Source: Alphaproteobacteria bacterium UBA3439
GTDB lineage: Bacteria; Pseudomonadota; Alphaproteobacteria; Puniceispirillales; Puniceispirillaceae
Assembly (NCBI GenBank): GCA_002378605.1
Contig: DFSK01000044.1
Span: forward strand, 1-13,615
Direction: 5' to 3'
DNA length: 13,615 nucleotides
The notes beneath the pieces are model-generated. The model ran no database searches. It saw only the letters and a list, made by a program, of their open reading frames with translations, and had not been told where the DNA came from. Position 1 is the stretch's first letter, and each line of letters begins with the position of its first letter. This document shows positions 108 to 12,941 of this stretch, in pieces. The position numbers and the translations under genes were made by a program.

Positions 108-774
108 TTTTGCCTTCTTTGCCTGTGGCTGGCAATGGTTTGAATTTATATTTGTCAAAAAGGGTCTGGGTTTTCATTTGCAATTCGACAAGATTCTTGC
201 TGTCGATTTGAGATTCGGCATCGTCACGCGCATCGCTTGTCTCGGGCAGATTGATCGCGGCGGCAATTGAATACCAGATATAGGCATTGCCATAATCGGG
301 TTCGGCGAGAATGGTTAAATGATAATTGGCAAATTGCGGAATTGCGTTTAGATCGTTGGCGTCGATGCGCGCTTGTAATGCCTCGCCAACGCGGCTACGC
401 ACTTCATCCGCCACTTTTGGCGGCAGCAAATCAACAATATCATTGGCCAAATCTTCGGCATCTTCAATGCCGCCAAGCTGGGCCTGCCATGACCAGAACA
501 GCGCATCAACATAATTGCGAGGGCGGCCCTTGCCAGCATTCAGCAAGACCGCAAGATTATGCTGCGCGTCATGGCGTGCCATTTTGGCCTGTGCTTCAAA
601 CAGGGTTATGGCATGGGCGTAATTTCGGTTTTTGACCGCCTTTACCGCTTCTTTGAAAGCCTTGTTTTCCATCTGGGTCTGCGGGTCGCTGGCGCTGACA
701 GGCAGGCCGAAAAGGCAGTTAGCAATCACAAAAAGGCTGAAAAATATGCGTTTTAGTGGGGCGAAACGGGTCAT
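97..774 (-). CDS. Secreted Sel1/TPR-like repeat protein
   Basis: A 225-residue protein. Residues 1-29 look like a signal peptide: basic start (RFAPLKR), hydrophobic core, and a cleavage-like VSASD. Two helical-repeat units of Sel1 type can be seen: one around residues 70-105 (AQHNLAVLLNAGKG ... ALFWSWQAQLGG) and one around 160-205 (YGNAYIWYSIAAA). The repeats are known as protein-protein interaction scaffolds, so a periplasmic adaptor role is likely. The ATG at 774 overlaps the TGA of the upstream gene by one base (TGATG), pointing to translational coupling; a GTG at 777 is also open but less likely. Vibrio MotX, a T-ring protein, is likewise a secreted Sel1-repeat protein of similar size. 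Given the H-ring genes in this window a MotX-like role is possible, but I see no diagnostic MotX feature. Confidence 0.8.
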   Translation of the reverse strand: MTRFAPLKRIFFSLFVIANCLFGLPVSASDPQTQMENKAFKEAVKAVKNRNYAHAITLFEAQAKMARHDAQHNLAVLLNAGKGRPRNYVDALFWSWQAQLGGIEDAEDLANDIVDLLPPKVADEVRSRVGEALQARIDANDLNAIPQFANYHLTILAEPDYGNAYIWYSIAAAINLPETSDARDDAESQIDSKNLVELQMKTQTLFDKYKFKPLPATGKEGKNDS

Positions 775-1160
775 CACCGCCCCGCCATCATCACCAACTG
801 CAAATACAGAACGCGAATTTTGAATTTTGAATTTGGCCGCTGTTCATAAACAACAATCCGCGGGCGATCCACATTTTGGCGCTGGAATTCAATCAACATA
901 TTTTCAGGCAGAAATACGCCATGGCTTTCTAACGTGCCGCATGGATCTTTATCAAACGCGGTACGAAAATCAGCGTCAATCCATGTGCGGGCAAGCGCCT
1001 TGCCAAGAATATCCGGCAAAAATTCACGCACATCTTCACGGCTGGTGAAATGTCGCTCGCCGTCATAGAGCGAAAATGATGGCTTGCTCGTTTCGGCGGG
1101 GCGGGTTGCGGGCAATTGTTTTGCCACGGGAACCAGCGATGTGTTTTGTTGCTTTGCCAT
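774..1160 (-). CDS. NHLP / nitrile hydratase alpha-like small protein
   Basis: A 128-residue protein with no signal peptide or membrane segment. After a low-complexity start (about 1-28), residues 48-108 resemble the nitrile hydratase alpha-subunit N-terminal domain and the derived NHLP leader of RiPP precursors: ARTWIDADFRTAFDKDP, then an LESHGVFLPE turn, then a beta strand ending VVYEQRP. This matches the family pattern of helix, W-D-x-x-F, D-P, G-x-x-L-P, V-x-E. The metal-binding Cys cluster of real nitrile hydratase is absent, and there is no Gly-Gly site or core peptide as in RiPP precursors; the tail ends in a basic/hydrophobic stretch. The start has an AAGG site at 1167-1170, six bases upstream. 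It heads a minus-strand operon with the Sel1 protein and a truncated gene, divergent from a hook/rod gene. The fold assignment is by eye; the function is unknown. Confidence 0.75.
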   Translation of the reverse strand: MAKQQNTSLVPVAKQLPATRPAETSKPSFSLYDGERHFTSREDVREFLPDILGKALARTWIDADFRTAFDKDPCGTLESHGVFLPENMLIEFQRQNVDRPRIVVYEQRPNSKFKIRVLYLQLVMMAGR

Positions 1161-2158: not shown

Positions 2159-2178
2159 TGACCTTTGGTCATTTATTT
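2159..2178 (+). terminator. Weak intrinsic terminator after the hook/rod gene
   Basis: A short hairpin, TGACC-TTT-GGTCA (2159-2171), begins two bases after the hook/rod stop codon and is followed by TTTATTT. The stem is only five base pairs, so efficiency is uncertain. It lies in the narrow gap between convergent genes and reads well only on the plus strand. Confidence 0.4.
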
Positions 2179-2586
2179 AAGCGGAATTGTCCAGACTAGA
2201 TTTGTGATTGCCGCATCAACTGGCGGATCAATAAACAAAATCCCATTATAATCAACCGATAGCGGCTTGTCTAATGTCGTCAATAGATTGATTGGGCGTG
2301 GCCCCGACTGGCGCAGCTTTTGCGCCAAATCATCAAATGGTTTTTGCGCCAGCGATATTGTTGCCTGCATCACGGCACGATCGGCCGGAATATGCAGGGC
2401 ACCAACAAATGACGGCGCGCGTTGCCCATCAGGGCGGATGATCATTTTGCATGATCCGCGGGCAATCGATACCAAGGATAGCGATAGATGCAGCTGTTCT
2501 TGAAAAGGATTATGCTGCAGATGATGTTCGGCAAGCTGCAATGACATCTGAATTTCGGTAATTTCGTTGAATTCAGATGCGGCCAT
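2173..2586 (-). CDS. Unknown protein, last gene of the flhA operon
   Basis: A 137-residue soluble protein with no signal peptide or membrane segment. I do not recognise the family. The N-terminal 50 residues are rich in Gln, His and Leu (e.g. MSLQLAEHHLQHNPFQEQLH), then comes an alternating hydrophobic, beta-like stretch, a central helix (ISLAQKPFDDLAQKLRQ) and a final beta-like region ending NLVWTIPLK. The ATG at 2586 lies two bases after the fliA stop, with no obvious ribosome-binding site of its own, so it is probably translated by coupling to fliA. A TTG at 2592 overlapping the fliA stop is the other possible start. Its place at the end of flhA-flhF-flhG-fliA suggests a flagellar role, possibly linked to FliA or motility control; that is inference from position only. 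Confidence 0.75.
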   Translation of the reverse strand: MAASEFNEITEIQMSLQLAEHHLQHNPFQEQLHLSLSLVSIARGSCKMIIRPDGQRAPSFVGALHIPADRAVMQATISLAQKPFDDLAQKLRQSGPRPINLLTTLDKPLSVDYNGILFIDPPVDAAITNLVWTIPLK

Positions 2587-2588
2587 GA

Positions 2589-3314
2589 TCAATCAATATG
2601 CTGTGATTTAGAGATATAGGAACGCAGATTGGCAATCGCTGACTTCTTGATCTGCGAGACGCGGCCAGTCGAAACCTCCAGCACTGCCGCGATCTCAAAC
2701 ACGTTTAACTCTTCGACATAATAGAGCTGGATTACCAGCGCTTCTTTTTCGCTTAGCTCATGAAGCGCCAGTTTCAGCAATCCTTGCAATTGATGCTGGT
2801 TCAGCTTTTCTTCTGGCGAATCCTCATCTGAGGCATACCAGATCGAATATTGGTCATAAACACTATCCAGCGAGTCATGTGCATTCGCCTGAAACGCATG
2901 TTCCCATTCTTGAAGCTCGGTTTCAGACATGCTCATGGCAACGCTGAGTTCGGTAACCGTTGGCTGGCGCATCAATTTGCTTTGAAGCTGGCTTTGCGCC
3001 TTATTATAGCGCTTTTTCATCTGAATCGTTGTGCGGCAAAGATTTGAGCTTTTGCGCAGATAATCGATGATTGCGCCTTTAATGCGGATGCTGGCGTAAG
3101 TGCCAAAAGTGGCACCTTCTTTGCGCGTATATTGCTGGGCGGCGTTTACCAGACCGGTAAAGCCAACCTGCATGATATCTTCGATTTCGGTTGTATGGCG
3201 TGTTCGGCCGTGAATTTGCCAAGCGATTTTCCGAACCAAATCACTATGTGTTTTGATTAGTTCATCAACATCTATTTTCTGATTGGCATAATGATCACGC
3301 GCTGCCATGTTCAT
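2589..3314 (-). CDS. fliA: Flagellar sigma factor FliA (sigma-28)
   Basis: A 241-residue sigma-70-family factor that directs RNA polymerase to late flagellar genes (flagellin, motor, chemotaxis). Region 2 covers about residues 20-90, with the core-binding EIEDIMQVGFTGLVNAAQQY and the -10-reading FGTYASIRIKGAIIDYLR. Region 3 follows at about 100-150, and region 4 is at about 185-235, including the helix-turn-helix NVFEIAAVLEVSTGRVSQIK. The length is typical of FliA. Absence of region 1.1, and the ASIRIKGAIIDYLR sequence after GTYA, fit FliA rather than RpoD or RpoH. The start ATG overlaps the flhG stop (TAATG), a sign of coupling. Its predicted anti-sigma factor, FlgM, is encoded in this window at 10642. 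Confidence 0.95.
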   Translation of the reverse strand: MNMAARDHYANQKIDVDELIKTHSDLVRKIAWQIHGRTRHTTEIEDIMQVGFTGLVNAAQQYTRKEGATFGTYASIRIKGAIIDYLRKSSNLCRTTIQMKKRYNKAQSQLQSKLMRQPTVTELSVAMSMSETELQEWEHAFQANAHDSLDSVYDQYSIWYASDEDSPEEKLNQHQLQGLLKLALHELSEKEALVIQLYYVEELNVFEIAAVLEVSTGRVSQIKKSAIANLRSYISKSQHID

Positions 3315-4101: not shown

Positions 4102-5262
4102 TTACTCTGAACCCGTACCTGTTGGCATGATTGCTTCGTGATTGCTGAAATTCTCTTTAAGATACTGCAATAAGATGTTTTCCGAAGCAAATATTGACGC
4201 TCCGATCACTGATTTTGTTCCTGACAGAATGCTGATGCGCGCACCTTGTTCAACATAGGCAGAAAATTCACTTGCTGTTGTTTCACATTCATCAAGCTTG
4301 GTCAGCGCGATCATTGGTTCCAGATCGGCAAAACGCTGCATGGTCAATTCGATCATGGCGCGGCTTGTGCTGCCCGGAATTGTGGCGATAATGCCAATCT
4401 CCTTGGCGCCGACATGCGCCTTGATTTCGGCAATTTTCTGGCTGGCCTCATCAGGCATCGCGGTTACATCAATCACCATGATATCATAATCAGTCATTTT
4501 GTTGAAATCAGTGACTGGTGTTGCCAAAGAAAGCGCGCAGACCGGTACATTCAGCAATCGGCCAAAACCTTGCAAGGACTGGTTATTTGATGCGTTCTGC
4601 CCATGCAAACTAGCAGCAATAATTTCCTTTCTCGGATGCGCCTCGCGAAGCATCGCGGTTAATTTTGCCACCATTGTCGTGCGGCCAGTACCGGTGGCAC
4701 CAACAACGAAAATCAACCTTTTTGACAATAATGCTTCGGCATGGGGATGGGCTAGCTTTTCCGCCATGCCGCCAAGAAAGGCATCACAGCCATCACCATA
4801 GGCAAGGCCAGCATAACGGGCTTTAAGAAGGTTTAGCGATGCGGCAGAAAATCCGGCGCGTTGCAATTCCAATCTCGTGCTTGCTGACAGGCTGGGATTA
4901 ACCCCATCAAGGTCGGTTAGCACCAGGCCTGACAGCATATTTTGCATTTGCGCGATATCACGGCGAAGCGCAGCGATATCGGCACCTGCAGCAGCAGGAA
5001 TTGGCATTTGTCCGTCATTCGGCGCGTTGCCAGCTTTTGCTGTTGCCGCAGGTTTAGCCAGCATTTGGCCTTTGAAAATATCGCTAAATCCGGCCTCAAC
5101 AGACGGTGCCATGGCTGGTTTAGCGCCGTCAGTCGTCGCTTCCATAACAATGCGGCCATTGCGCTTGCTGGTCGATATTATCATCGCATCTGGGCCAAGC
5201 TTTGCCCAGATTTCGTCCATTGCGGTTGCAGAATCTGCGGCTTGTACGGTTATCGTTGGCAT
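4102..5262 (-). CDS. flhF: Divergent FlhF (SRP-type GTPase, degenerate motifs)
   Basis: A 386-residue protein in the flhF position. An N-terminal B-type region (1-50, with DEIWAKLGPDAMIISTSKRNG) is followed by an Ala/Pro-rich linker, an N helical domain (about 95-175) and a G domain (181-386). FlhF normally marks the pole for flagellar assembly through a GTP-dependent dimer. Here the P-loop reads GATGTGRTT (188-196): Lys is replaced by Arg194. The G2 DTxR motif is gone (AASLHGQNASNN in its place) and G3 DTAG is IDVTAMPDE (264-272). G4 TKLD (321-324) remains, while the closing loop has SGT instead of the usual GQ. The frame is intact with no stop or shift, so the protein is probably made but may not hydrolyse GTP normally. 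A strong GGAGG site precedes it, and the gene sits between flhA and flhG. Confidence 0.9.
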   Translation of the reverse strand: MPTITVQAADSATAMDEIWAKLGPDAMIISTSKRNGRIVMEATTDGAKPAMAPSVEAGFSDIFKGQMLAKPAATAKAGNAPNDGQMPIPAAAGADIAALRRDIAQMQNMLSGLVLTDLDGVNPSLSASTRLELQRAGFSAASLNLLKARYAGLAYGDGCDAFLGGMAEKLAHPHAEALLSKRLIFVVGATGTGRTTMVAKLTAMLREAHPRKEIIAASLHGQNASNNQSLQGFGRLLNVPVCALSLATPVTDFNKMTDYDIMVIDVTAMPDEASQKIAEIKAHVGAKEIGIIATIPGSTSRAMIELTMQRFADLEPMIALTKLDECETTASEFSAYVEQGARISILSGTKSVIGASIFASENILLQYLKENFSNHEAIMPTGTGSE

Positions 5263-5269
5263 TGTTCAT

Positions 5270-5274
5270 CCTCC
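5270..5274 (-). promoter_or_regulatory. Strong ribosome-binding site of flhF
   Basis: GGAGG on the minus strand, seven bases before the flhF ATG at 5262, fixes that start. It lies in the 42-base gap after flhA, so flhF has its own ribosome entry rather than relying on coupling. Confidence 0.8.
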
Positions 5275-5304
5275 TTTTTTGGATGACGGCAAAAGCGCCG
5301 GATC

Positions 5305-7434
5305 TTATTTATCTTCAAGCTTATTGTCGGCATCACCGCTGATTGTCGCGATGACATTGATTTTCCGATTGTCAGGCAATTCGGTGAAGCCAAGAACCGC
5401 CAGATCGTCAATATGCTGGCGCATGATTGTTGATAATTGGCGACGGATTTGCGGCGAGACCACCAGGACGGCTTGACGGCCATCGGCTGATGTTTTTTCG
5501 CTGGCCTGCGCAACTGATTTGATCAATCGCTCGGCAAGACCACTATCAAGAAGTAGCCCGCCATCATTGCTTTGGCGTGACATTGAAATCAGCATATGTT
5601 CCAGCTCAGAACTGAGCGTAATCACGGGCAGGGGCTGATTTAACGGGGCAATTTGCTGGATCAAAAGACCGGCAAGGCCCGGACGCAAAGCTTCGGCAGA
5701 TTCGATGATGCCAAGATTACGACCAGCCAAATTGGCAAGCGTTTCCAAAATTTTGCGGAGATCGCTGATCGGTACACGCTCGGCCAGAAGCTCGCTTAAA
5801 ATTCCCGTCAACGCATGAAGCGGTACCAACTTGGGAACCACTGATTCAACAAGGCTTGGCGATGTCTGCGCCAGATTATCAAGAAGGACTTTGACATCAT
5901 CTTGGCCGATTAACTCATGCGCAAATTTATACATTACCTGCGAAATATGCGTTGCCAGAACTGATTCAGGCTCGACAACAACATAGCCATTGCTCTCGGC
6001 TTCGGCCTCTTTATGACGGTCAATCCAGATGGCATCCATGCCGAATGTTGGGTCTTTTACCTCGACTCCGGCAATCTTTACACTTGTTGAGTCACCTGGA
6101 ATAGCCAGTTTCAGGTCGGGGTAGACCTGATCTTCGCCAACAATCGTCTGGCCAATCCGAATGCGGTAATCATTCGCTTTCAAGGCCATATCATCGCGAA
6201 CCCGCACGGGCGGAATAACAAAGCCAAGCGCCTTGGAAACCTGTTTGCGAATGCCGGTGATCCGGTTCACAAGTGGCCCGCCAGTGGCCTCATCAACCAT
6301 GCCAATAAGGCCATAGCCGAGCTGTACTGAAACGGCCGAATTATCGGTAACATCGGTCAAATTGATCTGGTCAGGTGATTCCTTGCTGTCATCTTCAAGC
6401 AGCGCTTCGGCGCCAGGCTGTTGCTGCGCTTCAAGGTCGCTTTCGCCTTGTTCTCTTTTTCGCATCAAAAATCCGGCAAGACCAGCAATGGCAGCCGCTG
6501 CTAAAAACAGAAAATTCGGCATGCCCGGAACAAAACCGATCAATAGCAATACAGCCGAAACCGGAATCCAGGCGCGTGACAGGCTAATCTGCTTGCCAAT
6601 ATGCGCGGCCATATCCTCGGTTGTTGAAACGCGGGTTACGATAATGGCTGTGGCAATGGCCAGCATCAGCGATGGAATTTGCGCGACAAGCCCATCACCG
6701 ATCGACAATAGAATATAGGATTCTGAGGCGCTGGAAAATGACATATCATGCTGGGCAACGCCGATGATCAGACCGCCAATGATATTGATTGCAAGAATCA
6801 AGATACCGGCAATCGCATCACCTTTAACAAATTTCGATGCACCATCCATAGCGCCGTAGAAATCGGCTTCCTTGGAGATATCTTCACGGCGGATCTTGGC
6901 CTCGTCATTCGTCAGAACGCCAGCGTTCAAATCGGCGTCAATCGCCATTTGCTTGCCGGGCATCGCATCAAGAGTGAAACGGGCTGTCACTTCCGACACG
7001 CGGCCAGCACCTTTGGTGATCACGACCAGATTGATAATCACAAGAATGACAAAGACGAAAATACCAACAGCATAATTGCCAGCAATAACAAAGGCGCCAA
7101 ATGCCTCGATCACCTTACCTGCGGCCGATGTTCCTTCATGGCCATTACCAAGAATGATCCGCGTCGACGCTACATTCAGGCCAAGCCGCAGAACGGTGGC
7201 AATCAATAGCAAGCTTGGAAAGCTGGAGAAATCAAGCGGGCGATAGGTATGCAAAGCCACCATCAGCACCAGAAGCGAGACCAAAATATTGGTCACAAAG
7301 AAAGTATCTAGAAGGAAAGCGGGAAGGGGCAGAACCATCATCGCCACCAGCACCAAAATGCCAACCGGCATGACCAGCGTCGACAAAAAGCCAGCCGCAT
7401 TGCCAAACCCAAATCTTGTTAGCGTCATATTCAT
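5305..7434 (-). CDS. flhA: Flagellar type III export gate protein FlhA
   Basis: A 709-residue inner-membrane protein, the usual length for FlhA. The N-terminal half (about 15-330) holds several hydrophobic segments, with conserved stretches LLIATVLRLGLNVASTR and, in the cytoplasmic loop, FTLDAMPGKQMAIDADLNAG, the signature of the FHIPEP family. After an acidic linker (about 335-370) comes the cytoplasmic domain that docks export substrates and chaperones, ending in a charged tail. FlhA and FlhB form the export gate of the flagellar type III secretion apparatus, powered by proton motive force. The start at 7434 is preceded by AGGG some ten bases upstream; an in-frame ATG at 7428 is the alternative. 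It heads the minus-strand operon with flhF, flhG and fliA, behind a predicted sigma-54 promoter. Confidence 0.97.
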   Translation of the reverse strand: MNMTLTRFGFGNAAGFLSTLVMPVGILVLVAMMVLPLPAFLLDTFFVTNILVSLLVLMVALHTYRPLDFSSFPSLLLIATVLRLGLNVASTRIILGNGHEGTSAAGKVIEAFGAFVIAGNYAVGIFVFVILVIINLVVITKGAGRVSEVTARFTLDAMPGKQMAIDADLNAGVLTNDEAKIRREDISKEADFYGAMDGASKFVKGDAIAGILILAINIIGGLIIGVAQHDMSFSSASESYILLSIGDGLVAQIPSLMLAIATAIIVTRVSTTEDMAAHIGKQISLSRAWIPVSAVLLLIGFVPGMPNFLFLAAAAIAGLAGFLMRKREQGESDLEAQQQPGAEALLEDDSKESPDQINLTDVTDNSAVSVQLGYGLIGMVDEATGGPLVNRITGIRKQVSKALGFVIPPVRVRDDMALKANDYRIRIGQTIVGEDQVYPDLKLAIPGDSTSVKIAGVEVKDPTFGMDAIWIDRHKEAEAESNGYVVVEPESVLATHISQVMYKFAHELIGQDDVKVLLDNLAQTSPSLVESVVPKLVPLHALTGILSELLAERVPISDLRKILETLANLAGRNLGIIESAEALRPGLAGLLIQQIAPLNQPLPVITLSSELEHMLISMSRQSNDGGLLLDSGLAERLIKSVAQASEKTSADGRQAVLVVSPQIRRQLSTIMRQHIDDLAVLGFTELPDNRKINVIATISGDADNKLEDK

Positions 7435-7788: not shown

Positions 7789-8304
7789 ATGCGCAAGATT
7801 TTCAAGACAGCCGTGGTCTGCGGCCTTGGCATCGGGTTTTTGACAGCATGCCAGCATAACGGCACAGCAAGCCTCGACATGGCCGGCACATCCAAAATGG
7901 CAGCGGTCGAAGCCTCACAAACCCAGACAATTGTAAATTTAAAAGACGTTCTTGATGCCAGTGCGGAAAATATTCCAACGCTGACAGCTGTTGGCTATGC
8001 GGTGACATCATCGCAGCCGGGCCGTGGTGAGGCGCAAAAACGTTTGATGGCGATCCGGTCTGCCCGTATGGCGGCGATGCGCGATCTGGCCGAACAGATC
8101 CATGGTTTGCAGGTGGATTCAAGCACAACCGTGATTGATCTTGTCGTGCAGAATGATACGTTTCGCGGTGTTGTGAATGGCACCATCCGCGGCGCGCGCA
8201 CCGTTCGTATCAACCCAACCGGCACTGATACTTATGAGGTAGTGCTGGAAATTGATCGCGAAACCATCAGCTATCTTCTGACGACGGCGCGTAAGACGGT
8301 TTAA
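7789..8304 (+). CDS. flgP: Outer-membrane lipoprotein FlgP (LPP20 family)
   Basis: A 171-residue lipoprotein. A basic start and hydrophobic stretch lead to the lipobox LTAC with Cys21, so the mature protein is lipid-anchored. Residues about 65-155 match the LPP20 domain: TAVGYAVTSSQPG, a helix with RSARMAAMRDLAEQIHGLQVDS, then IRGARTV and a final beta strand. In Vibrio FlgP is part of the outer-membrane-associated H ring, and in Campylobacter it forms the large basal disk around the flagellum. It is the first gene of the operon, behind a strong sigma-54-like promoter with GGAG six bases before the ATG. Its stop overlaps the next start by one base. The neighbour FlgT supports FlgP over an unrelated LPP20 protein. 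Confidence 0.9.
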   Translation: MRKIFKTAVVCGLGIGFLTACQHNGTASLDMAGTSKMAAVEASQTQTIVNLKDVLDASAENIPTLTAVGYAVTSSQPGRGEAQKRLMAIRSARMAAMRDLAEQIHGLQVDSSTTVIDLVVQNDTFRGVVNGTIRGARTVRINPTGTDTYEVVLEIDRETISYLLTTARKTV

Positions 8305-9437
8305 TGATGTCTAAGCGGGTCATCACATGGTTTTTTGCCACGATCTTTGCCCTGTTAACTGGCACGCATGCGCTTGCTGGTGACGGTTTGCGCATGGTGA
8401 CGGCAACAGGACGTGCGGTGATCAATGATCAGGCAGCCTTGCATGAAGCAAAAAATATTGCGCTTGAAGATGCGCTATATCTTGCAGCGTTGAAAGGTGG
8501 CGCCAAGATTGACGGGTTTTCCTCGGTGCAAGCCGATACGAGCCTTGATGATCATTTCGTGGTGCGCCCTTCAAGTGAAATCCTTGATTATCGCATTATA
8601 AATGAGATCAAGGATGACCTTCATTATGAAGTGACTGTCGAAGCCGCCGTTGGCAAGATCGCCGAGCCTGCATGCCATGATCGTGCGGTTGGCCATTTAA
8701 CAATGTTTGCGCCAACAATGTCGATGACACGGTCGGTTCCGGGTTGGCTATCGACAATGCCGTCAATGATGATGGCTGATCTTTATCGGCAGCTGGAAAA
8801 TACCGCCAACCTGACATTATATAATGAAGCGGCGACAGTTCTTGATCCGGTAAAGATGAAACGCGATGCACGTTATGATTATAATGCGCTAATGAATGGC
8901 AAAGTGTCGATCCGTGATGGTGATTTTGCCTTTGTGACCAATATTGCGTTTGAAAGTTTCAGCGCCGATTTTGGGCTTGGCCAAAGTCAGCATTTGCGTG
9001 CCATCATCACAACCAGCCTTTATGCAGGCAGTCAGCTGACGCCGCTTGGCGAGGTTCGTGACGAGATCAAGTTGAAACTTGGCGATCGGTCACCAAGCCT
9101 GCTGATCAGCAAATTAAGCACAACTAAACGTGATGTAGTTAAGGCAGCTTTACTGAGCGGGCTTCAAAACCACGCCAAGGCGATTGCTTTGGCCACTTTA
9201 TGCTTGCCGCTGAAGGCTGTAATCAAATTAGAGAATGATAAGCTGCATGTTGACCTTGGGATGCGACAGGGCATTCAGGTTAACCGTCTGGCGATGGTTT
9301 CGGGCGTTGGCAGTAAATGGTCGGTTTTGCGGGTAATCGAGGCTGGTGATGGGCATTCAATTCTTGAGCCGCTTAGTCGCCAACGCAAGCCAGCCGATTT
9401 AAACGGCAAGCTTGCGACGTTTCTGGAGATGAATTGA
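8304..9437 (+). CDS. flgT: Flagellar H-ring protein FlgT
   Basis: A 377-residue secreted protein with a signal peptide ending at about Ala25 (THALA). Residues about 30-117 fit the FlgT N-terminal domain: VTATGRAVINDQAALHEAKN, then ALEDALYLAALKGGAKIDGF, and later ILDYRIINE and YEVTVEAAV. A middle domain (about 125-290) follows, with an APTMSMTRSVPGW segment, and the last 80 residues are beta-rich, ending in an SH3-like part (VDLGMRQGIQVNRLAMV). In Vibrio FlgT builds the periplasmic H ring and helps the T ring and stator assemble for fast sodium-driven rotation. The length is close to the Vibrio protein. The ATG overlaps the flgP stop (TAATG); a second ATG follows at once. Confidence 0.9.
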   Translation: MMSKRVITWFFATIFALLTGTHALAGDGLRMVTATGRAVINDQAALHEAKNIALEDALYLAALKGGAKIDGFSSVQADTSLDDHFVVRPSSEILDYRIINEIKDDLHYEVTVEAAVGKIAEPACHDRAVGHLTMFAPTMSMTRSVPGWLSTMPSMMMADLYRQLENTANLTLYNEAATVLDPVKMKRDARYDYNALMNGKVSIRDGDFAFVTNIAFESFSADFGLGQSQHLRAIITTSLYAGSQLTPLGEVRDEIKLKLGDRSPSLLISKLSTTKRDVVKAALLSGLQNHAKAIALATLCLPLKAVIKLENDKLHVDLGMRQGIQVNRLAMVSGVGSKWSVLRVIEAGDGHSILEPLSRQRKPADLNGKLATFLEMN

Positions 9438-9874
9438 TGCGCTATTTGATGTTTGTAATTCCATGCCTTTTCAGCATTGCCATGAATACAGCTATGGCCG
9501 AGCCGATTGTCGTGCTGACCTATGGGGCGCGTGACAATGGCGGTGTTGAAGATGCCGCAAGTTCACATCCATTTCGTATGGATCCGGATTATTCGGAAAT
9601 GCATGAAGTGGCGCAGGATGAAACCCTTGGCCATATTATGAATGACTATTATGGCGGCAGCGGCATGAATATGAAATTTGTGGAAATGGCCATCGTTCAG
9701 GTGAACCGTCATGCCTTTGTGCGGGGCAATCCGAATTTTCTCTATGCTAAGAAAACCATTCGCCTGCCATCCTTGAACCAGATCAAGGCCTTGGTAACCG
9801 GCGCAAAGCCTGAAAACAGCCCATCACAAGGTGGTAGTGGACGGACAAATGAAATCTATTTCTTTGGTGGGTAA
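9437..9874 (+). CDS. Small periplasmic protein with FimV-type LysM motif
   Basis: A 145-residue secreted protein. Residues 1-21 are a signal peptide ending AMA. Residues about 54-112 match the peptidoglycan-binding LysM segment found in FimV/HubP: HEVAQDETLGHIM, then EMAIVQVNRHAFVRGNPNFL, then KKTIRLPSLNQI, which fits the FimV-like pattern V-x-x-x-(D/E)-T-L ... A-I-x-x-x-N-x-x-A-F-x-x-G-N ... R-L-P. There is no second membrane segment and no cytoplasmic domain, so this is not a full HubP. The start ATG overlaps the flgT stop (TGATG) and is served by GGAG at 9425-9428; a TTG at 9434 is less likely. Between flgT and flgA, it probably helps seat the ring in or on peptidoglycan. The function is inferred from domain and position only. 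Confidence 0.85.
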   Translation: MRYLMFVIPCLFSIAMNTAMAEPIVVLTYGARDNGGVEDAASSHPFRMDPDYSEMHEVAQDETLGHIMNDYYGGSGMNMKFVEMAIVQVNRHAFVRGNPNFLYAKKTIRLPSLNQIKALVTGAKPENSPSQGGSGRTNEIYFFGG

Positions 9875-11307: not shown

Positions 11308-11748
11308 ATGGCAGATATGGCCAGTTTTTTCCAAAATCCCTTTATCATTGTGGTTCTGACAGCGTTGGCTGTGGTGCTGTTGCTGGTTGGGTTTGTGGCT
11401 GCCAAAATTCTGCTCAATCAACGTCTTGCTGATCGGCGTGTCGCGACAGTTGCTGATAATCTCGCGCAAATCGGTGATACAGTCATCCGGCTTCATCTCA
11501 GCCTTGAAACAATTGGCGAGCGGCTTCGTGATATTGAGAAAAAGACCGGTGGTTTGGCCGAAGGCTTTGATCAAAGCCGACAAGAGCTTGCCGATCTGGC
11601 GCAAAATTTCAGTGGTGACAAGCAAATGAGTCGGGCCATTGAACTGGCGCGAAACGGTGCGGCGGCAAATGAATTAACGCTGGCAACAGGCATTGGCCAA
11701 GATGAGGCCGAAGCCATTGTCAAATTTCACGGGCCTGCCAAAGCCTAG
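11308..11748 (+). CDS. FipA-like polar protein (DUF2802)
   Basis: A 146-residue inner-membrane protein. One membrane segment covers about residues 11-34 (IIVVLTALAVVLLLVGFVAA). It is followed by a charged helical region (38-100) likely to form a coiled coil, and a C-terminal DUF2802 domain (about 105-143) with MSRAIELARNGAAANELTLA and GIGQDEAEAIVKFHG. In Vibrio, Pseudomonas and Shewanella, FipA has exactly this architecture and recruits FlhF to the cell pole together with the landmark HubP/FimV. Here flhF is encoded in the same window. An AAAGG site precedes the ATG by nine bases. Domain assignment is by eye but the C-terminal pattern is clear. Whether it can bind this divergent FlhF is unknown. 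Confidence 0.85.
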   Translation: MADMASFFQNPFIIVVLTALAVVLLLVGFVAAKILLNQRLADRRVATVADNLAQIGDTVIRLHLSLETIGERLRDIEKKTGGLAEGFDQSRQELADLAQNFSGDKQMSRAIELARNGAAANELTLATGIGQDEAEAIVKFHGPAKA

Positions 11749-11779: not shown

Positions 11780-12121
11780 TTACATGGTGAAAATGCTGCG
11801 CTCGCACGCTAGGCGGGCAAATCGCGTGCCGCGGCTAATCTTGACGCTGCCATCATTGCGATCCAGCTCTAGATTCATGCGGCTGGCTTCAACTTCGATA
11901 TGATCATCACTAATGGCTTTGATGGTTGCTGTTTTTTCACTGCCATAGCCAATGATTTTGACTTCACCGCCAATGTTCGTGTCATTCACGATAATTGATT
12001 CAAGATCAAAGCTGACGCTTTTACACAAATATTTTTCGTGCCGGAACCGTTCCGCTGGACAAGCGGCAAGGCCAAAGGCAATGGCAAACCAGATTGCGGT
12101 TTTGCCAGCACGATAAATCAT
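11780..12121 (-). CDS. Small unknown lipoprotein
   Basis: A 113-residue protein with a basic start, a hydrophobic stretch and a lipobox-like LAAC with Cys21, so it is probably a lipoprotein (or at least secreted). The rest is beta-rich and has Cys33 and Cys105, which could pair; the stretch TNIGGEVKIIGYGSEKTATI looks like strands of a small barrel. I do not recognise the family. Its ATG overlaps the stop of the acidic protein by four bases (ATGA), so the two are co-transcribed and translationally coupled. Convergent with the DUF2802 gene, with only 31 bases between them and no terminator visible. A flagellar link is inferred from location. Confidence 0.75.
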   Translation of the reverse strand: MIYRAGKTAIWFAIAFGLAACPAERFRHEKYLCKSVSFDLESIIVNDTNIGGEVKIIGYGSEKTATIKAISDDHIEVEASRMNLELDRNDGSVKISRGTRFARLACERSIFTM

Positions 12122-12921
12122 GTCTTGTCATCCATATTGTCTGATAGGTCGTTATCAGGTGAAAGTGGCTGTTCGGCCTCGGCGGTGGTGGCATCTTCAC
12201 TGGCGGCCTGATCCGCGGCGACCATCGCCGGTTGTTCGTCACTTGCTGCCTCGGCGGTTTGTTCGCCTGTCACATCTGATGACGCATTTTCGTCGGGTTC
12301 AGCACTATCGCCATCATTCGGTTCACTGTCGTCATTTTCATCCTCGACACGATCTTCAGCCTCTGCGGCAGAACCGGCCTCGTCTTGATTGTCAAAATCA
12401 TCTTCATGAAATTCGATGATATTGCCATTTTCATCAACGCGAACAGCTTTTCCCGACCGGATCAGCTTTTCGGCATCTTCAGGTTTGGCATCAATGATTG
12501 CGCCTGATAAGAAGCGCACACCTTGAACTTCGCCTGTTGAGGTCATTTTAAGACGTGCCCAGCCATCTTCAATTTCGGTAACAACCTCATCATCATCATC
12601 ATTGACGGCATTCATATTTTCGCCGCCAAGATCAAGCGCGCCAACATTGATTTCCGAAATATCGGTCAGTGATGGGTCACGGTTAAAATCCTGAAGATTG
12701 GCGATGCGCGTCCGTAGCAGAAAGATGCGCGCGGCCAAAATGCCGATCCGCCGCAATTCATTTTGCTCAGTGGCAAGAGCTGTATTCATAAAATGGTTCA
12801 TTTCATCCAGCGGCTCGCCAGTGAATTTTTCAATTAGCGCGTTACGCACCTTAATTGTTTCAGGTGCCAGTGAAATTGATGACCCCGGACCGCCACCATT
12901 TTGGAGGGAAACTCTGCTCAT
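12118..12921 (-). CDS. Unknown protein with long acidic tail
   Basis: A 267-residue soluble protein with no signal peptide. Residues about 20-80 are helical (MNHFMNTALATEQNELRRIG, then LAARIFLLRTRIANL). Residues about 118-170 form a beta-like domain (WARLKMTSTGEVQGVRFLSG ... AVRVDENGNIIEFHEDDF). From about 172 to the end the chain is Asp/Glu/Ala/Ser-rich with almost no basic residues, hence probably disordered. I do not recognise the family. The start at 12921 follows GGAG with six-base spacing; the ATG at 12933 would cover that site. It is divergent from flgB with a candidate sigma-54 promoter on its side, and coupled to a lipoprotein gene. Acidic tails of this type often bind basic partners or metal ions, but no function can be claimed. 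Confidence 0.8.
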   Translation of the reverse strand: MSRVSLQNGGGPGSSISLAPETIKVRNALIEKFTGEPLDEMNHFMNTALATEQNELRRIGILAARIFLLRTRIANLQDFNRDPSLTDISEINVGALDLGGENMNAVNDDDDEVVTEIEDGWARLKMTSTGEVQGVRFLSGAIIDAKPEDAEKLIRSGKAVRVDENGNIIEFHEDDFDNQDEAGSAAEAEDRVEDENDDSEPNDGDSAEPDENASSDVTGEQTAEAASDEQPAMVAADQAASEDATTAEAEQPLSPDNDLSDNMDDKT

Positions 12922-12927
12922 TTTTTG

Positions 12928-12931
12928 CTCC
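12928..12931 (-). promoter_or_regulatory. Ribosome-binding site that sets the acidic-protein start
   Basis: GGAG on the minus strand lies six bases before the ATG at 12921 and overlaps the upstream ATG codon at 12933, so translation most likely begins at 12921. Confidence 0.7.
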
Positions 12932-12941
12932 ATGTCTATTT

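Follow-up and report, generated by a model that had tools for sequence, protein, structure and literature searches.

How can FlhF still serve a bacterium once the motifs of its GTPase have gone? The purpose of GTP hydrolysis by FlhF is itself unsettled, published mutants being in disagreement, and a flhF gene of the Puniceispirillales (SAR116) raises the question in natural form. The gene lies in a stretch of 13,615 nucleotides of Alphaproteobacteria bacterium UBA3439 (our assembly G000, 1.84 Mb and 81% complete; contig C118, 1-13615), which was analysed whole and is called the window below. A first-pass annotation had described an FlhF with degraded GTPase motifs in an intact frame. Its coordinates (4102-5262) and 386 codons stand, to which it must be added that flhF is encoded by the minus strand (many stops interrupt the plus strand when it is read from 4102); the strong ribosome-binding site that it described is present (Table 1). 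The translation also bears out Arg194 in GATGTGRTT, the missing DTxR, and IDVTAMPDE where DTAG would stand. The names G1 to G5 and the motif roles are those generally used for SRP GTPases. Within the G1-G4 set (K, DTxR, DTAG, TKxD) the window FlhF has only TKLD complete, as had been claimed, but the claim that nothing else survives goes too far, the Asp of DTAG being retained as Asp265.

Table 1. Features of the window that bear on FlhF, with the evidence for each
Feature	Position	Strand	Evidence
flhF, pseudo-GTPase form, 386 aa	4102..5262	-	ORF translation; SRP54 and TIGR03499 matches; AlphaFold2 model; fold matches to FlhF 8r9r and 2px0
FID (FliG-interaction domain), FlhF residues 1-44, strand-helix-strand-strand	5131..5262	-	Secondary structure of predicted model
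N and G domains, SRP-type fold, FlhF residues 128-377	4132..4881	-	pLDDT about 90 over most; solved-structure matches
P-loop GATGTGRTT, Arg194 in place of Lys	4675..4701	-	Translation and alignments
Former G2 motif (DTxR) site, motif gone	4582..4611	-	Alignments; variability above domain average
G3, Asp265 retained, remainder of DTAG gone (IDVTA)	4459..4473	-	Alignments
G4 TKLDE retained	4288..4302	-	Alignments
flhF ribosome-binding site AGGAGG, 7 nt 5' of ATG	5270..5275	-	Sequence
flhG, MinD-like ATPase, nine residues before P-loop, without DQAxxLR helix	3314..4096	-	Family models
flhA	5305..7434	-	Family models
fliA, sigma-28	2589..3314	-	Family model
fipA-like gene, 146 aa, predicted N-terminal membrane helix and DUF2802	11308..11748	+	PF10975 36.1 bits; syntenic homologues
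LPP20 lipoprotein and FlgT_N protein (flgP/flgT-like)	7789..9437	+	Family matches; in same cluster of relatives

The order flhA-flhF-flhG-fliA fits membership of the FlhF family. Pfam SRP54 matches the protein above its cut-off (35 bits against 22.7), and the NCBIfam FlhF model TIGR03499 matches it at 6e-18 with 65.7 bits, below a cut-off of 174.15 bits that no more than 3 of the 386 class genomes exceed. An AlphaFold2 model has a mean pLDDT of 73.9, with most of the NG domain near 90, and the best Foldseek matches are the FlhF structures 8r9r and 2px0, both at probability 1.00. Strands at residues 3-8, 27-34 and 37-43 and a helix at 11-22 give the β-α-β-β order of the FID, a domain defined in Shewanella putrefaciens FlhF in the excerpted text of PMC11236974, and the alignment agrees.

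Several smaller genes of the window are recorded here in their own right. Between flgT and flgA, within the flagellar cluster, a 146-aa protein (9434-9874, plus strand) has a weak, sub-threshold match to FimV_core (TIGR03505, 4.8e-6), a polar-landmark family. At 774-1160 (minus strand) a 128-aa protein adjoining a Sel1-repeat protein bears a weak likeness, below cut-off, to NHLP-type RiPP leader peptides (TIGR03793), and by eye ORFs resembling it and of like size adjoin flgF in L041, a locus of the sister family f2. The 139-aa protein after fliA (2173-2592, minus strand) matches none of the Pfam families over cut-off and has homologues at the matching place in the seven f11-type records described below. 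Two proteins beside fipA (12118-12933 and 11780-12121, minus strand), likewise without a Pfam family match, are found again in the same position at most of the order's loci that we examined and in the f11-type records. A search of the PDB with the window FlgT protein gave no match.

The plainest explanation of such a sequence would be a decaying gene in a lineage that is losing its flagella, or an assembly artefact, and we consider this refuted in the main and give it next to no credence. FlhF is indeed absent from some of the order's nearly complete genomes (e.g. G006, G007 and G015), FliG is found in 8 of the 12 f2 genomes with three of >90% completeness lacking it, and flhF of G010 is split into two frames, which overlap in locus L141 (G010:C8). 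On the other side stand a whole flagellar cluster, FliG in G000, and 263 homologues of the window FlhF (E <= 1e-5), which come from several sources and of which the closest, among the best 120 of 263, are 95-100% identical; the frame is uninterrupted in 78 of 79 rows of the table described below. Ratios of dN to dS are low, at 0.11-0.13 in three close pairs: G000/G004 (0.054/0.413 over the whole gene, 0.032/0.450 in the G domain and 0.019/0.321 in the FID) and two further pairs (0.057/0.541 and 0.068/0.513). A far pair gives 0.18 (0.350/1.933), and the closest, G003/G008, gives 0.31 on few changes (0.015/0.048). Together the homologues, the 79 rows and the dN/dS values rule out sequencing error and a pseudogene, and on this point the first-pass annotation was right.

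The motif loss is conserved throughout the order. Out of 136 Puniceispirillales genomes searched with profiles, 82 carry an NG-bearing FlhF and 79 FlhFs were tabulated, the table omitting the contig-end fragments G030, G462 and G474 and a second copy in G455; the G010 row is truncated and without G3-G5 letters, so that later columns have n = 78, and the rows of G019 and G499, from short loci, have no N-terminus. DTxR stands at the aligned G2 place in none of the 79. A loose text pattern for DTxR matched two rows, and the aligned G2 letters of both are without the motif. The single-copy error that would have left close relatives intact thus fails as an explanation, as the relatives share the loss, and the suggestion of a rewired protein gains accordingly. 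The glycine of DxxG is present in 1 of 78 FlhFs and gone from the other 77. Other positions have hardly moved: Asp265, Lys322 and Asp324 are each found in 78 of 78, position 321 is Thr in 75 and Ser in 3, Thr or Ser occupies 195 in all 79, and the P-loop Gly and Thr residues are almost invariant. At 194 the P-loop Lys persists in 56 of 79 and is Arg in the remaining 23, Arg being fixed among tabulated rows in the window's genus (11 of 11), g10 (7), g4 (2) and g5 (1) and found in two of the three rows of family f3; the Lys/Arg state requires three changes on the FlhF tree.

For contrast we examined 40 FlhFs, one per genome, that come from 35 family codes outside the order; as the best scorers of an intact-FlhF model among 386 class genomes, they are a set biased towards intact motifs. 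They resemble the window FlhF in having the NG domain, a FID match in every case, and flhG within the fetched stretch at 35 of 40 loci. They differ in that all 40 have the P-loop Lys and DxxR/K and 33 have DxxG (39 and 32 for G2 and G3 under stricter patterns), that G4 is often TRLD (19 of 40), and that their genomes contain no PF10975 match; their FlhF and FlhA sequences fall on branches separate from the window type. DGQ in the closing loop occurs in only 5 of the 40, so that the altered GQ loop pointed out earlier is real in the window, yet with 35 comparison FlhFs also lacking DGQ it is not specific to this lineage.

The flagellar cluster of the window also carries a gene for a candidate receptor. 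FipA of Vibrio parahaemolyticus, as described in excerpts of PMC11620751, is a membrane protein with a DUF2802 domain that binds FlhF and helps its recruitment to the pole. The fipA-like product of the window exceeds the PF10975 cut-off of 33.5 bits and has a single membrane helix, predicted by reading the sequence, and one DUF2802 domain. Among 386 genomes of the class, 12 contain a PF10975 match (E <= 0.001; four over the family cut-off), and all 12 carry the degenerate FlhF while none belongs to the 40 comparison genomes (Fisher p 5e-12, kinship ignored). The association is drawn from related genomes and is phylogenetically not independent, and PF10975 absence from the comparison genomes may in part reflect sensitivity, because the same model failed to detect the syntenic FipA of G042. 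A profile built from the order's own FipAs had matches (E <= 0.001) in 48 of the 289 class genomes, mostly through weak partial matches in other proteins; strong matches outside the order number five (four in family f11, one in f20). Within the order a strong match (E <= 4e-14) occurs in 68 of 136 genomes, 65 of them with an NG-bearing FlhF, and in the other three (G501, G465 and G515), which are incomplete assemblies, FlhF was not seen.

Restriction of this FlhF to the Puniceispirillales was ruled out. FipA searches led to the same type of FlhF in six f11 and two f20 genomes outside the order, whereas in three other f20 genomes searched FlhF was not found, and seven marine single-cell or MAG records related to f11 share the cluster along with its FipA and this form of FlhF. 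In a quick tree of 86 rows (at least 330 aa, at most four per genus of the order) the degenerate FlhFs form one side of a single branch with SH-aLRT 100, and FlhA, a separate protein, gives the same split over a very long branch, whose length leaves the deeper relation unsure. Most f11 rows have DxSG at G3, that is DxxG is present while G2 is gone, and these states suggest that G2 may have been lost first, then G3, and then the Lys. A related cluster lies on plasmid pOA238_118 of Octadecabacter arcticus, where a 'hypothetical protein' after flhA (OA238_RS27095; L280, 18135-19583) matches the FlhF profile at 1.9e-34; it has a P-loop, no G2, the Asp alone of G3 and no TKLD, and neither flhG nor fliA is annotated beside it. 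A plasmid search with the window FlhF gave no match at E 1e-5, and at the place on the Octadecabacter plasmid that matches fipA (P0162) neither our profile nor Pfam found a FipA. FlhA matches on plasmids are Octadecabacter at 63%, followed by alpha- and gammaproteobacterial sequences at 46-48%. The very long branch sets the FlhA of this cluster type apart from the remaining alphaproteobacterial FlhAs in the comparison, so a separate, transferred flagellar system is possible, and a gammaproteobacterial origin of the cluster was considered in view of FlgT, the FlgP-like protein, FipA and the long FlhA branch.

The sister family f2 has gone further. Between flhA and flhG, at the place of flhF, 8 of its 12 genomes encode a protein of about 350 aa (e.g. 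AB8880_08225 of isolate LSUCC0684, to which the G037 protein is 100% identical) in which a FID and a short helix lead into a long coiled coil at 114-201, followed by a probable membrane helix at 208-224 and then by a sandwich domain. This last domain matches DUF3426 weakly (20.7 bits, below the 27.7 cut-off), and many homologues of the protein are labelled PF11906. The model is modest (mean pLDDT 70.7, pTM 0.31) and found only weak, unrelated-looking matches among solved structures; its FID has the same elements at the same residues as that of the window FlhF. The f2 protein is thus like the window FlhF in FID, short following helix and gene order, and unlike it in having a coiled coil, membrane helix and DUF3426-like domain in place of the NG domain and no fipA in the slot. 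Four f2 loci extend across the fipA slot. In each of them an ORF of about 100 aa comes after flgM, occupying the flgN position (its name is from position alone), and the next genes stand after it with no fipA, against fipA in its slot at all 11 of the NG-bearing loci that we examined. A strong FipA match is missing from all eight genomes that encode the fusion protein. One f2 genome, G515, does carry fipA, on a contig that stops before the flhF place. An SRP54 search counted exactly two SRP GTPases in 8 of the 12 f2 genomes and 3, 0, 4 and 1 in G049, G060, G515 and G516; such counts are weak proof that f2 has no FlhF GTPase, the search having also missed the FlhFs of G003 and G059, and the argument rests instead on the gene at the flhF place. 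In the FlhA tree f2 falls among the NG-bearing families of the order, and therefore its loss of the NG domain looks derived.

Does what is left of the window's GTPase domain still hold a nucleotide? Ten kept positions of the P-loop, G3 Asp and G4 have a mean entropy of 0.05 bits among 58 homologues, where the NG domain averages 0.88, and of 0.14 against 1.96 within the order; none of 20,000 random position sets was as conserved in either data set. As the ten were chosen from the classical motifs after the alignments had been seen, lost positions being excluded by design, the test speaks for constraint on that part of the pocket and not for function of the whole. The five positions of the G2 place lie above the domain average, at 1.58 bits among the homologues and 2.87 within the order. 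The earlier proposal of a nucleotide-independent polar marker consequently has less support than its alternative: with P-loop, Asp265 and TKLD kept far better than the NG average, binding of nucleotide without a hydrolysis cycle seems likelier than no nucleotide at all, and only f2, which lost the GTPase domain, suggests independence from the domain itself. The kept positions could serve folding alone, and if so the NG domain would be a fully nucleotide-free scaffold, its P-loop and TKLD residues holding the fold only. Arg for Lys in 23 of 79 FlhFs and at more than one place in the tree, an f2 that manages without the domain, and a plasmid relative that has dispensed with G4 all fit such a scaffold; the conservation of the remaining pocket so far above the domain average, with the Walker A Lys in the majority of FlhFs and Asp265, Lys322 and Asp324 in every readable row, does not, and we regard it as unlikely. 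A GTPase that is still active, its catalytic residues relocated or completed in trans by FipA or FlhG, appears less likely again. Residues elsewhere might substitute for the lost ones, migrated residues being possible in pseudoenzymes according to the excerpted text of PMC10211241, and the low G-domain dN/dS and the retention of Asp265 and Thr195 are in keeping with activity, while the variability of the G2 place above the domain average and the loss of the domain in f2 argue against it.

The reading that we favour, and hold to be probable, is that the window FlhF is a pseudo-GTPase that probably still binds nucleotide and serves not as a GTP switch but as a constitutive tether. Its FID would bind the C-ring protein FliG. 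The NG domain has preserved its fold and a large part of the nucleotide pocket but not the residues that drive hydrolysis, nor, in the window's genus, the P-loop Lys, and it therefore probably holds nucleotide as a structural ligand that would not be hydrolysed. FlhF would in this way tie FliG to a receptor at the pole or in the membrane, for which FipA, with its gene 6 kb off in the cluster, is the likeliest candidate; release and control of number would come from FlhG or from turnover in place of GTP hydrolysis. In f2, a FID fused to its own membrane anchor would do the same job, NG domain and FipA having both been lost.

Published alleles, all cited from excerpts of the sources, bear on this tether. 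In Pseudomonas aeruginosa FlhF, K222A is hydrolysis-defective, R251G GDP-locked and D294A binding-defective, and all three retained FliG binding in a two-hybrid assay (PMC6855561); by spacing only, K222, R251 and D294 would fit the residues that are here replaced, lost and kept, respectively. The P. aeruginosa G domain directs polar location and the B domain flagellar assembly (PMC12713375). These alleles and domain roles point to a tether without a clock, in which nucleotide is held and not split. A dead FlhF is not simply interchangeable with a live one, however, as R251G is dominant-negative for swimming (PMC6855561) and in Vibrio mutating the GTPase motifs of FlhF leads to loss of polar localization and of flagella (PMC6092412). 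In disagreement with the allele test of PMC6855561, GTP-bound FlhF is also reported to bind FliG and hydrolysis to weaken the binding (PMC12713375).

The neighbouring FlhG is a MinD-like ATPase, with GKGGVGKT, matches to the ParA and MinD models, and a gene adjoining flhF. Excerpts describe a DQAxxLR helix of FlhG that stimulates the FlhF GTPase (PMC12826062) and a P. aeruginosa FleN without it (PMC12713375). The helix is missing in the window FlhG, and we rejected its loss as a change of the partner of a dead GTPase: it is equally absent from 35 of 35 FlhGs outside the order, as from FleN, and lends the tether no specific support.

The degenerate FlhF and the f2 swap suggest that flagella can be positioned without a GTPase switch. 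In a natural clade that includes cultured strains the switch motifs are gone, while the protein, its FliG-binding domain and mostly also FipA are kept under selection; together with f2, it separates the tethering role of FlhF from its switch role and yields predictions for free-living marine isolates. The FipA-like gene, found in Alphaproteobacteria, occurs there only alongside the degenerate FlhF in the genomes searched. More tentatively, and with slightly less than even confidence, we propose that marine Alphaproteobacteria lost hydrolysis and arrived at a fixed FliG-FipA tether, and that f2 then grafted the FID to a membrane anchor and discarded both GTPase domain and FipA, giving GTPase-free placement by one protein. 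In the literature searched we found no publication joining FlhF and SAR116 or joining FipA, FlhF and Alphaproteobacteria, and among the matches listed nothing pertinent to a degenerate or inactive FlhF; the main texts of two SAR116 papers make no mention of flagella or motility.

Among known systems, the FlhF of S. putrefaciens (8r9r) shares FID and NG fold with the window FlhF and that of Bacillus subtilis (2px0, 2px3) shares the NG fold; both, however, are active GTPases, whereas in the window FlhF DTxR and DTAG are missing and Arg replaces the P-loop Lys. FipA of V. parahaemolyticus, Pseudomonas putida and S. putrefaciens, in the excerpted account of PMC11620751, has an N-terminal membrane helix and DUF2802 and accompanies flhF and flhG, as does its counterpart here. 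The putative FipA of the window differs from these in its alphaproteobacterial host and in being paired with a degenerate FlhF.
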